Of a stretch of 34,158 nt of DNA, positions 4,602 through 17,523 are shown one piece after another. A model generated the notes under the pieces. It saw only the letters and a program-made list of their open reading frames with translations, was not told the DNA's origin and searched no databases. Source of the DNA: Candidatus Peribacteria bacterium RIFOXYB1_FULL_54_35 (GTDB lineage: Bacteria > Patescibacteriota > Gracilibacteria > Peribacterales > Peribacteraceae); the NCBI GenBank assembly GCA_001787755.1, contig MFYJ01000007.1, forward strand, positions 42,788-76,945, read 5' to 3'. Numbering within the stretch: position 1 is the first letter of the stretch; each line of letters opens with the position of its first letter. The position numbers and the translations under genes were made by a program.

Positions 4602-4623
4602 TAGGGAACATTCCCTCTCTTCT

Positions 4624-4710
4624 ATGAGCGAAAGAACCATCTTCCACCCTTCGATTTTCTCAGGGTGTTCTCTGCTATTATTCCATCCTCCACTACTCAG
4701 CTATGTCTGA
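4624..4710 (+). CDS. Possible 28-residue leader ORF, copy 1
   Basis: Starts MSERTIFHPSIF, almost the HIT N-terminus (MTERTIFH), then reads through the palindrome and leader. Its TGA at 4708 overlaps the start region of the second copy. It may be a translated leader or just a decayed duplicate. No evidence of selection can be judged here. Confidence 0.3.
   Translation: MSERTIFHPSIFSGCSLLLFHPPLLSYV
4646..4666. repeat. Palindromic repeat in HIT leader copy 1
   Basis: ACCCTTCGA at the left and TCAGGGT at the right form a hairpin. It belongs to the same family as 257-292, 4725-4746, 15384-15426 and 30618-30636. Confidence 0.6.
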
Positions 4711-4786
4711 AAGAACTGTCTTCCACCCTTCGATTTCACTCAGGGTGTCCTCTGCTATGATCGCATTCCCCATTGTTACTCTATGA
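4703..4786 (+). CDS. Possible 27-residue leader ORF, copy 2
   Basis: Starts MSERTVFHPSIS and stops at TGA 4784-4786, which overlaps the ATG of the HIT gene (ATGA at 4783). Such an overlap would allow translational coupling. Equally it may be a fossil of the tandem duplication. Confidence 0.3.
   Translation: MSERTVFHPSISLRVSSAMIAFPIVTL
4725..4746. repeat. Palindromic repeat in HIT leader copy 2
   Basis: ACCCTTCGA and CTCAGGGT flank a short centre. It has the same position within the 80-bp unit as the element at 4646-4666. Confidence 0.6.
4753..4761 (+). promoter_or_regulatory. Extended -10 box for the HIT gene
   Basis: TGCTATGAT, that is TG-C-TATGAT, ends 21 bases before the HIT ATG. Its sister in copy 1 is TGCTATTAT at 4673-4681. 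Confidence 0.6.
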
Positions 4787-5127
4787 CTGAAAGAACCATC
4801 TTCCACAGAATTCTGGATGGGGAGATCCCGGCAGAGAAAGTATACGAGGATGATGAAGTGCTCGTGTTCAAAGATATTCACCCAAAGGCGCCGACGCATC
4901 TTCTCTTCATCCCCAAGAAGGAATTTGTCCCCTCCATTGCAGACCTAACCGAGGAGACGCTCCATGTGCCTGCGATGCTCATCTACAAAGCCAAGCAGCT
5001 TGCGGATAGGCACGGGATAGACGGGTATCAGCTCAGGTTCCATGTCGGGCACAGCGGGGGACAGGAGGTGTTTTACCTGCACCTGCATTTTTTGAGCCAG
5101 CAGAGTCTGGAGGAGGAGGAGAGTTAG
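4783..5127 (+). CDS. HIT family protein (HINT-like) with altered triad
   Basis: A 114-residue histidine-triad nucleotide-binding protein. Family members cleave nucleoside phosphoramidates or adenylates. The N-terminus (TIFHRILDGEIPAEKVYEDDEVLVFKD) and PTHLLFIPKK are typical of the HINT branch. The triad segment reads EVFYLHLHFLS. The catalytic and third histidines (H100, H102) are present, but the first triad histidine is Tyr98 (codon TAC in place of CAC/CAT). The usual Asn-x-Gly just upstream reads FHVG. The usual C-terminal GGR...P end is replaced by an acidic EEEES tail. Its 3' end overlaps the convergent HAD gene by four bases. The start is repeated twice upstream in an 80-bp tandem array. 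Activity may be reduced or changed. Confidence 0.85.
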   Translation: MTERTIFHRILDGEIPAEKVYEDDEVLVFKDIHPKAPTHLLFIPKKEFVPSIADLTEETLHVPAMLIYKAKQLADRHGIDGYQLRFHVGHSGGQEVFYLHLHFLSQQSLEEEES

Positions 5128-7387: not shown

Positions 7388-7493
7388 GAGAATAGATAAG
7401 AGGAAAGAGGAATGAGGGAAGCATCAAAATCCTAAGATTTTTAAGAACCCAAGGAAACAAACCCTCTTATTCTCTTTCCTCTTATCTATTCTC
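7388..7493. repeat. Inverted repeat element A at the 3' end of the TraC-like gene
   Basis: A perfect 22-base inverted repeat (7388-7409 and 7472-7493) of purine-rich sequence surrounds 62 bases. The right arm ends one base before the stop codon of the gene at 7495. No T-run follows the arms, so it is not a standard intrinsic terminator. The remaining bases of the 7265-7494 gap show no gene. Confidence 0.85.
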
Positions 7494-8879: not shown

Positions 8880-11495
8880 TCATGAGGTTTTCTCAGAAGC
8901 AGCAGCCTGCTTACTTTCCAGCACAGTCTCTTCCTTTGGTGCGGGTTTGCCCGGGAGGAACTCCAGTTTGTCTTTTCCCTTCCTCACAATACGAATCGTA
9001 TCGCCGGGCTGGAAAATCTCTTTGAGGATGTGCTCAGCTACTTCATCTTCCACGCGTTCCTGTATCACGCGGCGGACGGGCCGGGCTCCGTACTCCGGAT
9101 CGAACCCCTCCTGTGCAAGGAAGAAGATAACATTCTGGTCTGTGTCCAGCGTGTAGCCCTGCTGTTTCAGACGTTCTTCGAAACGGGTGAGGTGCAGCTT
9201 CACGATCTTGCGGATGTGTTCCTGGTGGAGTGCGTTGAAGACAATGGTGTGGTCAATGCGGTTGAGGAACTCCGGTCGCAGATTGTCCTTGAGTTCCTGG
9301 ATGACTTCTGCGCATTTTTCCTCGTAGGCGTGATCGTCTTTCCCGGATTCGTTCTCGAGCTGGAATCCTATCTTCCCTGCCTGCTTTGTGAGTTTTGCTG
9401 CACCGATATTGCTCGTCATGACGATAATCGTATTCGTGAAGTCCACCTTCTTTCCCTGGCCATCTGTGAGTACGCCGTCTTCCAGAATTTGCAGGAGAAT
9501 GTTGAAGAATTCCGGATGCGCCTTCTCGACTTCGTCGAAGAGAACAACAGAGTAGGGTTTGCGACGCACCGCTTCCGTAAGTTGCCCGCCCTCCTCATAT
9601 CCCACGTATCCTGCCGTTGTTCCTATGAGGCGAGAGACGTTGTGGCGCTCCATGAACTCAGACATATCGATCTTGATGAGGGCATCTTCACGGTTGAATA
9701 CTTCCTCTGCGATTGTGCGCACGAGTTCAGTTTTTCCCACGCCGGTCGGGCCGAGGAAGAGGAAAGAGCCAATGGGCCTGCGCTGATCACCAATGCCAAC
9801 GCGTGAGCGGCGAATGGCGCGAGCCACCTTTCGTATTGCCTCGTCCTGTCCCACCACGCGCTTGCGGAGAACCATCTCGAGGTTCTGGAGCCGTTTCTTC
9901 TCAGTTTTTAGGAGTCTGGTTACGGGGATCCCGGTCATTCTCCCAACGGTGTGTGCAATGTCGTCTTCGGTGATCTGGAGGGGGGTACGCCGGTCACCGT
10001 CCTGCATGGAACGGAGATGGTCGAGCTCCTCCTGCAGGCTCTGCTGTTCCTGCTTGAGCTTGAGTGCCACGTGGTATTTCTGCTCCTTCACCGCATCCTG
10101 CTGTTTCTCTATGAGTTTCTCAAGCTTGTCTTCTGTCTTTTTGATCTCCGGTGACTGGTCAGGGTTGAGGAGGCTTTTCCCTGCGGCTGTTTCGTCGAGG
10201 ACATCGATGGCTTTGTCTGGCAGGTAGCGGTCTGTGAGGTATCTTTTGCTCAGATGCACGGCCGCTTCCAGTGCCCCCTCTGTGATGGAGATGTTATGGA
10301 ATTCCTCAAATCCTGACCGAATGCCACTCAGTATTTTTATGGAATCTCCGACACTCGGTTCTTCTATGAGGATGGATTGGAAGCGTCGTTCCAGTGCCCG
10401 GTCCTTCTCGATGGTTTTGTACTCGTCGGTTGTGGTTGCTCCAATGACTTGGAGAGATCCGCGGCTGAGTGCGGGCTTGAGAATATTTGCCGCATCGAGT
10501 GATCCTTCTGCAGAACCGGCTCCGACGACGGTGTGCATTTCATCGATGAAGAGGATGATTTCGTTCTCGCATAGCACTGCTTCTTTGATGATGTCATCGA
10601 ACCGCTGTTCGAACTCACCTCGGTACTTTGTTCCTGCGACGAGAGAGCCCATGTTCAGAATGAGTACCCGCTTGTTCCTGAGAGAGCTTGGGACTTTGCC
10701 CTGGGCAATACGCTGTGCCAGCCCCTCGACCATGGCAGTTTTTCCCACACCAGGCTCACCGATGAGTACCGGGTTGTTTTTTGTTTTGCGGTTCAGGATG
10801 TGAATGATGCGCTCAATCTCTTCGTCGCGCCCGATGATGGGGTCGGTTTTCCCTTCCTTCACTTTCTTGATGAGGTCATCTGTGAAGTAGTCGAGCACGG
10901 GTGTTTTACTCTTGCCGTCCGTCTTCCGGCGTTTCAGCTCTTCCGGTTCCATGCCCGGCATGGCGCCCTGCATGCCAACGATGGCACCCTGCAATCCCTG
11001 GAAGAAGGATTCGAGAGACTGCTCCATATTTTTACTCTGCTGCTTGAATTGGTTGATTTGGCCGAACATCTCCTCGACGTGCGATTTCAGGTCTTCCGGG
11101 TCCACCTGCATCTGCTCGAGCAGCATGGTTGCGGCATTCTTCTCAGTAGAGACGAGTGCATGGAGGAGATGTTCTGTTCCAACATTTGCATGACGGAATT
11201 TATGTGCTGTAATAACGCTCTGCTCGATGACATTGTGCAGGTAGGTGGAGAGTCCATGTTTGACATGTTTTCCCTCCACATCCTGGGATTTCATAGCTTT
11301 GAGCAGGATGCGCACGTTCTCGAGAGTAACCCCGGCACCCGTGAAAATGGAAAAACCCAGCGATTTTGGGATGCTGAGGAGCCCCAGGAGCAAGTGCTCT
11401 GATCCAATGTAACTACTCTTCATGTTCTTTGCTTCCTGTTCCGCAATCTGCAGAGCAAGTTTTGCATTGGGCGTGAAGCGATCAAAAGGGTGCAT
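8880..11495 (-). CDS. clpC: ATP-dependent Clp protease ATPase subunit ClpC
   Basis: 871 residues, full length. It has a double Clp-N repeat (about 1-145) and a first AAA+ domain with Walker [10 protein letters not shown] at about 245 and Walker [11 protein letters not shown] middle region has a UVR-like stretch ([16 protein letters not shown], about 470). The second AAA+ domain has GPTGVGKTE at about 580, and the D2 small domain follows. A GKIGF loop near residue 707 matches the hydrophobic tripeptide that docks ClpP. It unfolds proteins for ClpP degradation. A CIRCE operator and an extended -10 lie upstream, so HrcA heat-shock control is expected. The opposite-strand ORFs across it are shadows. 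Confidence 0.96.
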
Positions 11496-11510: not shown

Positions 11511-11537
11511 TTAGCACTCTACCATAGAGAGTGCTGA
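11511..11537. promoter_or_regulatory. CIRCE operator (HrcA binding site) of clpC
   Basis: TTAGCACTC, nine bases, then GAGTGCTGA. Against the CIRCE consensus TTAGCACTC-N9-GAGTGCTAA only one base differs. It lies 16 bases before the clpC ATG and just downstream of the -10, the classic place for repression by HrcA. Confidence 0.92.
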
Positions 11538-11558: not shown

Positions 11559-11642
11559 ATTTATCACAACTCTCCTTTCCTGTGGAGTGACAGAAAGGAG
11601 AAAAACCGTGGAAGATACTATGTAAACTATAGATTACTTGTT

Positions 11643-11798
11643 GGGGTTAGGGTTAGGGCTAGGGTTAGGATGTTTGGTTTTGAGCGAAGAACTTTGAGCT
11701 TTCAGCAAATCACAAATTGCCAAAGTTACAAAGGCAAAACTCCAAGCATCTTTTCATTCCCTATCCCTAACCCTATCCCTAACCCTATCCCTAACCCA
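11643..11798. repeat. Inverted repeat element B with telomere-like TTAGGG arms
   Basis: The left arm (11643-11669) is built of GGGTTA-type hexamers. The right arm (11759-11798) is built of CCCTAA/CCCTAT units with a 12-base period. Inside, a second inverted pair GATGTTTGG/CCAAGCATC with TTTTG/CAAAA continues the stem. The right arm ends five bases before the stop codon of the AI-2E gene. No gene is seen in 11559-11803. Confidence 0.85.
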
Positions 11799-11803
11799 AA
11801 TCC

Positions 11804-13054
11804 TCATTTCTCCATTTCGCGCACCCGCCAGTCCTCGAGGAAAATGGAGATGATGGTCGTTGTAGGAATGGCGAGCATAATGCCCAGCACAGGGTGGATG
11901 GTATCCGGAAAGCTGATGCCTACCATCATTGCGAAGAGGATGGCAACGGGGGAGAGGCCGACAGCCCTCCGCATAATCAGAGGAACGAGGAGGTTGTTTT
12001 CACACCACTGAATAACGTAGTAGATGCCGACGAGAATGAGTCCCCAGATGAATCCCCCCTGTGTCAGTCCTATGAGCACTGCTGGTATGGCGGCTATGAA
12101 CGGACCCACTGCAGGGATGAATTCACAGAAGCCCGCGAGTACTGCGAGCGTGAGTGCATATGGCATGCGCAGAATAAGGAGGGCTGTGAGTGTGAGGAGG
12201 AAAATACTGAAGCAGAGCACGAGCTGGCCCCGGGCCCATTGGGCGATTTTTCTGTGCACCGCTTCCGATTTCCCCGTGGCGTACAAGCGGTATCGGTGCG
12301 GGAAGAAGCTCAGGAACCATCGGATGAGTTTTTCTTTCTCCAACTGCATGAAGAAGGCGAGGACAAGTACGATGATCAAGCTCACAAAGAAATTCACGAC
12401 TGAGCCTGCGAGCTGCACCACGAAGGTGACAGACTGATGCGCGGCAGAAGAGAGGTTCTGCCCAAGTTGCTGCAGCGCGTCAGTGAATTTCATGATGGAA
12501 AGGTCCTGCAATGTCGTTTGCACCAAGACTGTCAGTTCGTCGTTGACTGTTTCTGAGACGAGGGGCAGAGAGATTTCGGGGTGAGAGAGGAATGCGTTGA
12601 TTTTCACGCTCATGAGCAATGCGATTTCCTGTATCTGTGATGCGATGATAGGAATGAAGGAGACGACGAGGAAGAAGAGCATGAACAGGGCGGCAAAGTA
12701 TTGGAGGAGCACGGCAATCCCTCGCGGGATGCCGACTTTCTGCAGAGCCTCCACGCCGGGATCGATCACGGCTGCCACGAACATGGCCAGAAACAGGATG
12801 ATGAGCTTGTCGCGGATCTGGATGACAAGCCACGCACCTGCAAAAATTGCCAGGATGAGGAACGCAGCTTTGACAACGCTCTTGCCAGAGATATGCACCA
12901 CCAGTTCGTTGTGTGCTGCCTTTGGCAGCTTTGCGAGAGCAAGATGTGATCTCTCGCCAGATTTGCGTGCGCACTCGAGGATCTTCTGCGCTTTTTCGCC
13001 GATGATGCGCAGGGAGGTGAAATGAGCTTTTTCTTCCTTCTTCTTCGGTGGCAT
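11804..13054 (-). CDS. AI-2E family transporter (PerM/TqsA type)
   Basis: 416 residues. A basic N-terminal tail of about 60 residues is followed by a pair of spans. Then come a long amphipathic region (IREI/QEIALLMSVKINAFL..., about 140-200) and further spans in the C-terminal half. The ending, VGLSPVAILFAMMVGISFPDTIHPVLGIMLAIPTTTIISIF, is broken here by function: the VGLSPVAIL and GIMLAIP motifs are typical of the family. Such proteins export small molecules, with autoinducer-2 as the namesake. The substrate here is unknown. The ATG at 13054 is preferred to the TTG at 13060. No Shine-Dalgarno is visible. The sequence before the start is pyrimidine-rich. Confidence 0.88.
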   Translation of the reverse strand: MPPKKKEEKAHFTSLRIIGEKAQKILECARKSGERSHLALAKLPKAAHNELVVHISGKSVVKAAFLILAIFAGAWLVIQIRDKLIILFLAMFVAAVIDPGVEALQKVGIPRGIAVLLQYFAALFMLFFLVVSFIPIIASQIQEIALLMSVKINAFLSHPEISLPLVSETVNDELTVLVQTTLQDLSIMKFTDALQQLGQNLSSAAHQSVTFVVQLAGSVVNFFVSLIIVLVLAFFMQLEKEKLIRWFLSFFPHRYRLYATGKSEAVHRKIAQWARGQLVLCFSIFLLTLTALLILRMPYALTLAVLAGFCEFIPAVGPFIAAIPAVLIGLTQGGFIWGLILVGIYYVIQWCENNLLVPLIMRRAVGLSPVAILFAMMVGISFPDTIHPVLGIMLAIPTTTIISIFLEDWRVREMEK

Positions 13055-13075
13055 AGTCAAGGAGGGGGAGGAGAT

Positions 13076-16693: not shown

Positions 16694-16747
16694 GCCGCGC
16701 TACTCTATAGAGAGGAAAGGGGAGAGGTCAATGATTTAGTAGCCTAT

Positions 16748-16875
16748 TAGCTTGTTAGCTTCATTAGCTGCATTAGCTTCATTAGGGGCTGGGATGTTTG
16801 GTTTAATTCCTTTGTATCTTTCTAACGAAGCTAATGAAGCTATAAACCTAACAAACTAATGAAGCTAACAAGCTA
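16748..16875. repeat. Inverted repeat element C with AGCTTCATT-type arms
   Basis: A perfect 20-base inverted repeat (16748-16767 and 16856-16875) surrounds 88 bases. The arms and inner flanks are tandem words of the type TTAGCTTCATTAGC. The right arm ends six bases before the stop codon at 16882. The middle contains GGATGTTTGGTTT at about 16791-16803, shared with element B at about 11668-11680. Confidence 0.88.
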
Positions 16876-16881
16876 ACGAAG

Positions 16882-17523
16882 CTAGTTCGTCAGTGTCTCA
16901 ATTAAATCAAACACCACTGCGTCTTTGCCTTCCGCCACATGGAATTCGTAGAGGCGCTCGCGGATACGGATGAAGACAACGCGTTCTTCGTTGATGGCTG
17001 GGTCCAGGAATGTCAGGAGGTTGCGCAGAGCTTTCCCCTCCCTCTCCTGCGCCTCGTCCACCAGGTCACGCATCTCAGGAGAGAATGTGGAGTGCAGAGC
17101 CTCTTTGAGAGCCAGCAAGTAGATTTTCACCTGCGGAGAGTCTGCCCATGCGATGAGACCGATGCGATCGCCATCCTTCACGAGCACCTTTGCCTGGACA
17201 GTTGCGACACCACTCGGAATGATTTGTTCCAGAAGGCTGCGCTCTCTCGCCGGGTCGGCGAAATTGAACTGCTCGACCGTGAGAATCTCCAGCACATTTG
17301 GTTCCTCAATTTTCCGAATGCCGCCTCCCACGGAGGATGCAGATGATTGCGCGGCGGAAGAGGAACCGCTGTTTGCCACGACAGCTACCTCCTGTGGGGG
17401 TTCCGGCTGCTGGAGTTGAATGAGTAGCTTCTTATTCTCAATGAGCAGGGCGTCAAATGTGCCGAGTGCCACAAGTACTGTGAGTAGGCCAACGGTGAGA
17501 GTTGTGGGATTCCGCATGCGCAT
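16882..17523 (-). CDS. Hypothetical membrane-anchored protein
   Basis: 213 residues, unrecognised. Residues 8-27 form one membrane span. A Pro/Gln/Ser-rich linker (about 38-72) leads to a soluble C-terminal domain of about 140 residues with regular alternation of strands and helices (VQAKVLVKDGDRIGLIAW, then RIRERLYEFHVAEGKDAVVFDLIE). The C-terminal domain is probably outside the cell. The minus-strand box TAGAAT lies exactly six bases before this ATG, supporting the start and a leaderless transcript. It is divergent from ruvB, and the two promoters sit within 50 bases. Confidence 0.65.
   Translation of the reverse strand: MRMRNPTTLTVGLLTVLVALGTFDALLIENKKLLIQLQQPEPPQEVAVVANSGSSSAAQSSASSVGGGIRKIEEPNVLEILTVEQFNFADPARERSLLEQIIPSGVATVQAKVLVKDGDRIGLIAWADSPQVKIYLLALKEALHSTFSPEMRDLVDEAQEREGKALRNLLTFLDPAINEERVVFIRIRERLYEFHVAEGKDAVVFDLIETLTN

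Follow-up and report, generated by a model that had tools for sequence, protein, structure and literature searches.

Inward-facing arrays of short tandem words form dispersed intergenic hairpins, usually beside stop codons, in a Peribacteria genome

The window analyzed here is a stretch of 34,158 nucleotides from Candidatus Peribacteria bacterium RIFOXYB1_FULL_54_35. Between the stop codon of a transporter gene and clpC it carries two arrays of short tandem words that face each other. An initial annotation of this DNA had described G-rich and C-rich arms facing inward at this intergenic site, next to what it called an exporter gene. Both the arrangement and the location were borne out, the coordinates given were correct to within 3 bases, and the exporter proved to be an AI-2E family transporter. 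The window holds two further elements of the same class. The features are:

11640-11669, plus strand: left (5') arm of GGGNTA units, GTTGGGGTTAGGGTTAGGGCTAGGGTTAGG
11670-11757, no strand: core of 88 bases between the arms, homologous to the cores of other GGGTTA elements
11758-11797, minus strand: right (3') arm of CCCTAW units, in inverted orientation to the left arm
11804-13060, minus strand: AI-2E family transporter gene (PF01594), whose TGA stop (11804-11806) adjoins the right arm
11580-11593, minus strand: promoter-side block CTGTGGAGTGACAG / CTGTCACTCCACAG, conserved in relatives, between the element and clpC
11511-11537, minus strand: CIRCE-like operator of clpC, TTAGCACTC-N9-GAGTGCTGA, also present in relatives
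8880-11495, minus strand: clpC
7388-7493, no strand: second member of the class, arms GAGAATAGATAAGAGGAAAGAG / CTCTTTCCTCTTATCTATTCTC, missing in the congener G001
16746-16884, no strand: third member of the class, with arms built from TTAGCTTCA / TGAAGCTAA; it has the ribosomal protein L11 gene (16246-16668) on one side and the stop codon of the following gene on the other

The right arm of the element beside clpC is a perfect 12-mer tandem, CCCTATCCCTAA, repeated 3.2 times, and 27 of 30 positions of the two arms pair in the best register. The best inverted-repeat (IR) score in this gap is 21, compared with a mean of 8.1 and a maximum of 13 in 300 dinucleotide shuffles. The RNA fold reaches a z-score of -8.3 on the plus strand and -4.0 on the minus strand, the latter being the direction in which both flanking genes are transcribed. 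As score and fold both lie beyond the shuffles, the facing arrays stand as a real feature. A search against Rfam returned tRNAs only, and a scan for promoters and terminators at the element found nothing. The window also contains an intergenic repeat of another type at 4621-4806, in which an 80-bp unit that includes TTCGATTTACTCAGGGTG occurs 2.3 times with 78% matches.

The initial annotation had further proposed that the element may influence clpC. We find no support for this, because the element lies no more than 8 nt from the stop codon of the upstream transporter gene, because the conserved block and the CIRCE-like operator stand between it and clpC, and because the same gap in relatives holds no element or one made of another word. 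The words found there in other Peribacteria are AGTCRCN-like (L025, L033), GGAATACG (L035) or GGGTTT-rich (L063).

The window feature belongs to a class of intergenic hairpins dispersed in many copies through the small genome of this bacterium. The genome is a MAG of 1.56 Mb in 16 contigs, 97.9% complete, and the class statistics come from one contig (C7; 400 kb, 26% of the genome), on which genes were called with a simple home-made codon-score caller and the best inverted repeat was taken for each intergenic gap. Forty gaps in these 400 kb have an IR score of at least 14, compared with none after dinucleotide shuffling, and the arms show clear short-period tandem structure in 32 of the 40. 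A pattern scan of the whole genome located matching arms at many loci, always with the G-rich arm first and the C-rich arm second. An assembly artefact at a single site, a possibility raised by the initial annotation, is thus excluded, since the arms are present at many separate sites spread over several contigs.

Each element consists of a core of about 25-170 bases, a left arm made of a string of one partly degenerate word, and a right arm that is its reverse complement. At least eight different words of 6-9 nt are used in this one genome: GGGTTA (6 nt); GTAGNTT, GTATGTC, GAAGGCA and TAGCGGT (7 nt); GAGAATAA, ACTAGAGT and CTCGTTNG (8 nt); and TTAGCTTCA and GAAACAGAG (9 nt). Pairing is the rule, as 52 of 70 intergenic arrays with a period of 5-12 are accompanied by an inverted partner no more than 350 nt away, compared with 6 of 70 in a complement-only control; among coding arrays the figure is 4 of 43. 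The GGGTTA family keeps to one polarity: five genomes together hold 23 distinct inward pairs, and no outward pair was seen in nine genomes. The sole exception to fixed polarity is an almost loop-free GTAGNTT palindrome at C7:247022-247086, in which the CTACAAG arm comes first. The core of the GGGTTA element at C7:303449-303614 contains a further palindrome, GTCATAGTGAGCCTG ... CAGGCTCACTATGAC, that is also present near C7:143232-143294.

Short words of this kind were seen in coding sequence as well. A long, Gly-rich, repetitive and coding-looking region at C5:6259-6554 carries GGGTTAGGG-type words and is the only such place noticed in the genome. In the relative G013, GGGCTA-type units lie within a tatD-like coding sequence (L115, ~1490-1530), and in G010, AGCTCAA heptamers lie within a pheT-like coding sequence (L178, ~1500-1540).

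The elements sit tightly against the ends of genes. Where the flanking genes are co-directional, the median distance from the element edge to the stop codon upstream is 4 nt (8 nt with unextended arms), against 48 nt for random placement (P < 0.0002); the following start is 87 nt away. Elements in convergent gaps lie close against a stop at either edge, and in divergent gaps the element is found mid-gap, about 60 nt from the starts; the genes flanking these last elements, such as TyrS/RluD-like and GlmS/S20-like ones, are presumably real, judging by their protein sequences. Among gaps of at least 100 nt, an element is present in 10 of 35 convergent and 7 of 59 divergent ones (P = 0.054). The stop codon next to an element is TAG in 21 of 32 cases, compared with about one third elsewhere (P = 4e-4), and some arrays start with the stop codon itself.

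Elements of one word family share more than their arms. The window core is homologous to GGGTTA cores at C7:131763, C7:173971 and C8:6169 once direction is adjusted, and 7 of 10 pairwise comparisons of GGGTTA cores, with orientation allowed for, score above all 300 shuffles. A BLAST search with the window core had returned a single copy and one weak match, to a heptamer array within a coding sequence of G010; the absence of core homology that this first suggested was dropped in view of the direction-adjusted alignment. An HMM built from five GGGTTA cores matches its own building members on C7 with E-values of 1e-12 to 1e-19 and has no match in the reversed contig. The loops of the TTAGCTTCA elements are 77-95% identical between loci, and homology between GGGTTA and GTAGNTT cores is suggestive only (E 0.008-0.09). 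The presence of a homologous core in several GGGTTA elements identifies them as dispersed copies.

The elements also turn over rapidly between genomes. We compared the genome with a congener, G001 (mean identity of 60% between reciprocal best proteins; 536 kb read, 38% of that genome), and found no tandem-arm inverted repeats in these 536 kb. At five of five orthologous sites the G001 gap is shorter, by 32-146 nt, so the sites look empty. The gap orthologous to 7388-7493 is 105 bases shorter; its promoter half aligns and the element alone is missing. As G001 does without them, the elements can have no essential role. GGGTTA matches vary likewise between other congeners (33 in G014 and 0 in G045; 20 in G026 and 0 in G050), and other Peribacteria build the same architecture from other words. 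The initial annotation had held that a lack of conservation in relatives would refute it; what is conserved there is the architecture and not the sequence.

The arms themselves carry little trace of one another. Within an element they are no more alike than between elements (P = 0.30 for GGGTTA and 0.94 for GTAGNTT), and on these values we rejected the idea that they are copies of each other. In GTAGNTT arrays the N position is near random, against 74-93% conservation elsewhere in the word, and neighboring units are uncorrelated at the variable positions. The independence of the arms, the near-random position and the uncorrelated neighbors together argue against recent slippage and arm-to-arm copying. 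One element at C7:128104-128332 (L101) is nested: inverted outer arms of the 8-nt word CTCGTTNG enclose inverted inner arms built from a 7-nt, GTCACTT-like word, which gives the impression that an older word family was surrounded by another. We tentatively entertain the view that the class is defined by architecture rather than sequence, with words being replaced, as such layers suggest, shape, polarity and placement at stops being kept, and the two arms being written independently of each other.

The common property of the class is a long hairpin that can form in either direction of transcription, usually beside a stop codon. Across 40 genomes of Peribacteria and sister families within their class, no match to Rho passed the family cut-off, and termination must therefore rest on other signals. 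Two weak rho matches in the window's own genome turned out to be the F1-ATPase subunits atpD and atpA. Canonical U-tailed hairpins are modestly enriched at gene ends (16-20% compared with 6%) and neither clearly enriched nor depleted at the elements; at the window element the hairpin lacks a trailing U-tract. Given the long hairpins at stops, the lack of detectable Rho and the modest enrichment of U-tailed hairpins, the role that we prefer on sequence grounds is that of a 3'-end hairpin, which may act in termination, in protection or in insulating the next promoter. This proposal is weakened by the elements between divergent genes, by the lack of a U-tract and by the fact that G001 does without such elements.

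Taken as a whole, the reading we favor, with a probability of about one half, is that these are REPIN/MITE-like dispersed hairpins that are kept at stops and act as 3'-end RNA hairpins or insulators. Such elements would spread through the genome and be retained where they adjoin stop codons. Arms transcribed from either side would fold into a long 3'-terminal hairpin, which would end or protect the upstream transcript and insulate the next gene. The stability of the RNA folds (z -4.0 to -8.3) speaks for this model. Against it, our search of the 97.9% complete genome, which for transposases covered the families PF01797 and PF01609, found neither Y1_Tnp/RAYT (PF01797; the control was positive) nor DDE_Tnp_1 (PF01609), nor a reverse transcriptase domain (RVT_1, PF00078). 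Target-site duplications were likewise not found, flanking words being shared no more than by chance. In addition, 7 of 32 elements are flanked by divergent genes, a setting in which a terminator would have no evident use.

The main competing explanation is that the elements are neutral or selfish only: they multiply, and they survive beside stops because they would not be tolerated in promoters or genes, with no benefit to the host. Their rate in divergent gaps, about 60 nt from starts, is not far below background, the congener G001 lacks them altogether, and words and copy number vary among congeners, as in the pair with 33 and 0 matches, all of which fits this account. The edges are nevertheless closer to stops than avoidance of promoters alone would need, and the excess of TAG stops at elements also counts against it; we regard it as a serious but somewhat doubtful alternative. 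A different origin would do without mobility altogether, with slippage growing the arms and template switching in the hairpin copying them across. Quasi-palindrome correction of this kind is familiar from bacteria, and the tandem arms, including the clean 12-mer triplication in the right arm of the window element, are of the kind it would leave. It is already weakened by arms that are no more alike within elements than between them, by uncorrelated neighboring units and by homologous cores at unlinked loci, and we consider it unlikely.

Two further proposals start from the likeness to telomeres and G-quadruplexes (G4). The arms might have been added independently to DNA ends, in the manner of telomere addition with one loosely copied position, and the ends then joined head to head. 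The polarity is that of fused telomeres, the two arms are independent of each other, and one GTAGNTT position is nearly random while the rest are conserved; yet cores common to several loci, a genome devoid of PF00078 and the many templates that so many words would require make this scenario very improbable. The GGGTTA arms might instead function as G4 or in a telomere-like way. They have at least four G-tracts and absolute G4Hunter scores of 1.1-1.7, and GGGAATC repeats from Xanthomonas form G4 in vitro (PMC4692102). In the same genome, however, words devoid of G-runs show identical architecture and placement, and we hold a G4 or telomere-like function to be improbable. The initial annotation had suggested both likenesses. 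The G-rich arm of the window element is indeed formally capable of forming a G4 (four G-tracts, G4Hunter 1.57), but G4 is not the common property, because it is open to the GGGTTA family only, all other unit families scoring below 0.9. The telomere likeness found no support: sister elements share the shape and use other short words, so the resemblance is a coincidence. Shape, not word, seems to matter in these elements.

These observations bear on how such repeats are understood. Short G-rich intergenic repeats of bacteria have so far been discussed mainly as G4. The co-occurrence of G-rich and non-G-rich paired words in one genome argues that pairing, and not G4, is the common property, and this can be tested. 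In this group of bacteria, which has no detectable Rho, fast-changing hairpins may mark the ends of genes.

Our literature search found no description of such elements in Peribacteria, but relatives in form are known elsewhere. REPIN/REP elements are also dispersed intergenic hairpins of two inverted arms, built from one conserved REP sequence (PMC3116915). Here the arms are strings of 6-9 nt words instead of a conserved palindromic REP pair, no common REP sequence runs across the word families, and the genome has no RAYT. A likeness to MITEs lies in the terminal inverted repeats around a multi-copy, shared, non-coding core, seen in five GGGTTA elements and in the TTAGCTTCA loops. The BrickBuilt MITE of Porphyromonas gingivalis is likewise dispersed and intergenic, with tandem units and inverted ends (PMC4596501); there 23-nt tandem units are central and flanked by small inverted ends, whereas here the inverted arms themselves consist of the tandem units. 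REPIN and BrickBuilt are thus relatives in form, and not all their defining features are present here. Other known classes are further removed. The window element lacks the U-tract that, with a GC-rich hairpin, marks an intrinsic terminator, and the arrays are internal, between genes, unlike telomeric arrays at chromosome ends with a telomerase. G-tracts of at least three per unit, as in G4 repeats, occur in the GGGTTA family, including the window element, and not in the class overall. The TAACTGA repeats of Beggiatoaceae and cyanobacteria are also intergenic heptamer arrays, but they are direct repeats, located for the most part immediately before start codons, in which inverted pairing is not the rule (PMC4679880).

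Closest of all are the GGGANTN heptamers of Xanthomonas, of which there are 70-75 convergent plus/minus pairs per genome; most of the repeats lie close to a neighboring gene, and divergent gaps hold few of them (Rehm et al., 2015; PMC4692102). As here, these GGGAATC/GGGANTN repeats are degenerate tandem words, intergenic, near or overlapping stops, arranged in inverted pairs and under-represented in divergent gaps. In Xanthomonas there is one G-rich word, which was studied as G4, and some of its repeats were noted to pair (PMC4692102); here there are at least eight words in one genome, most of them not G-rich, three quarters of the arrays are paired, cores are shared and words change wholesale between congeners. 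The GGGANTN pairs of Xanthomonas are nonetheless the closest published case, and the same kind of thing.
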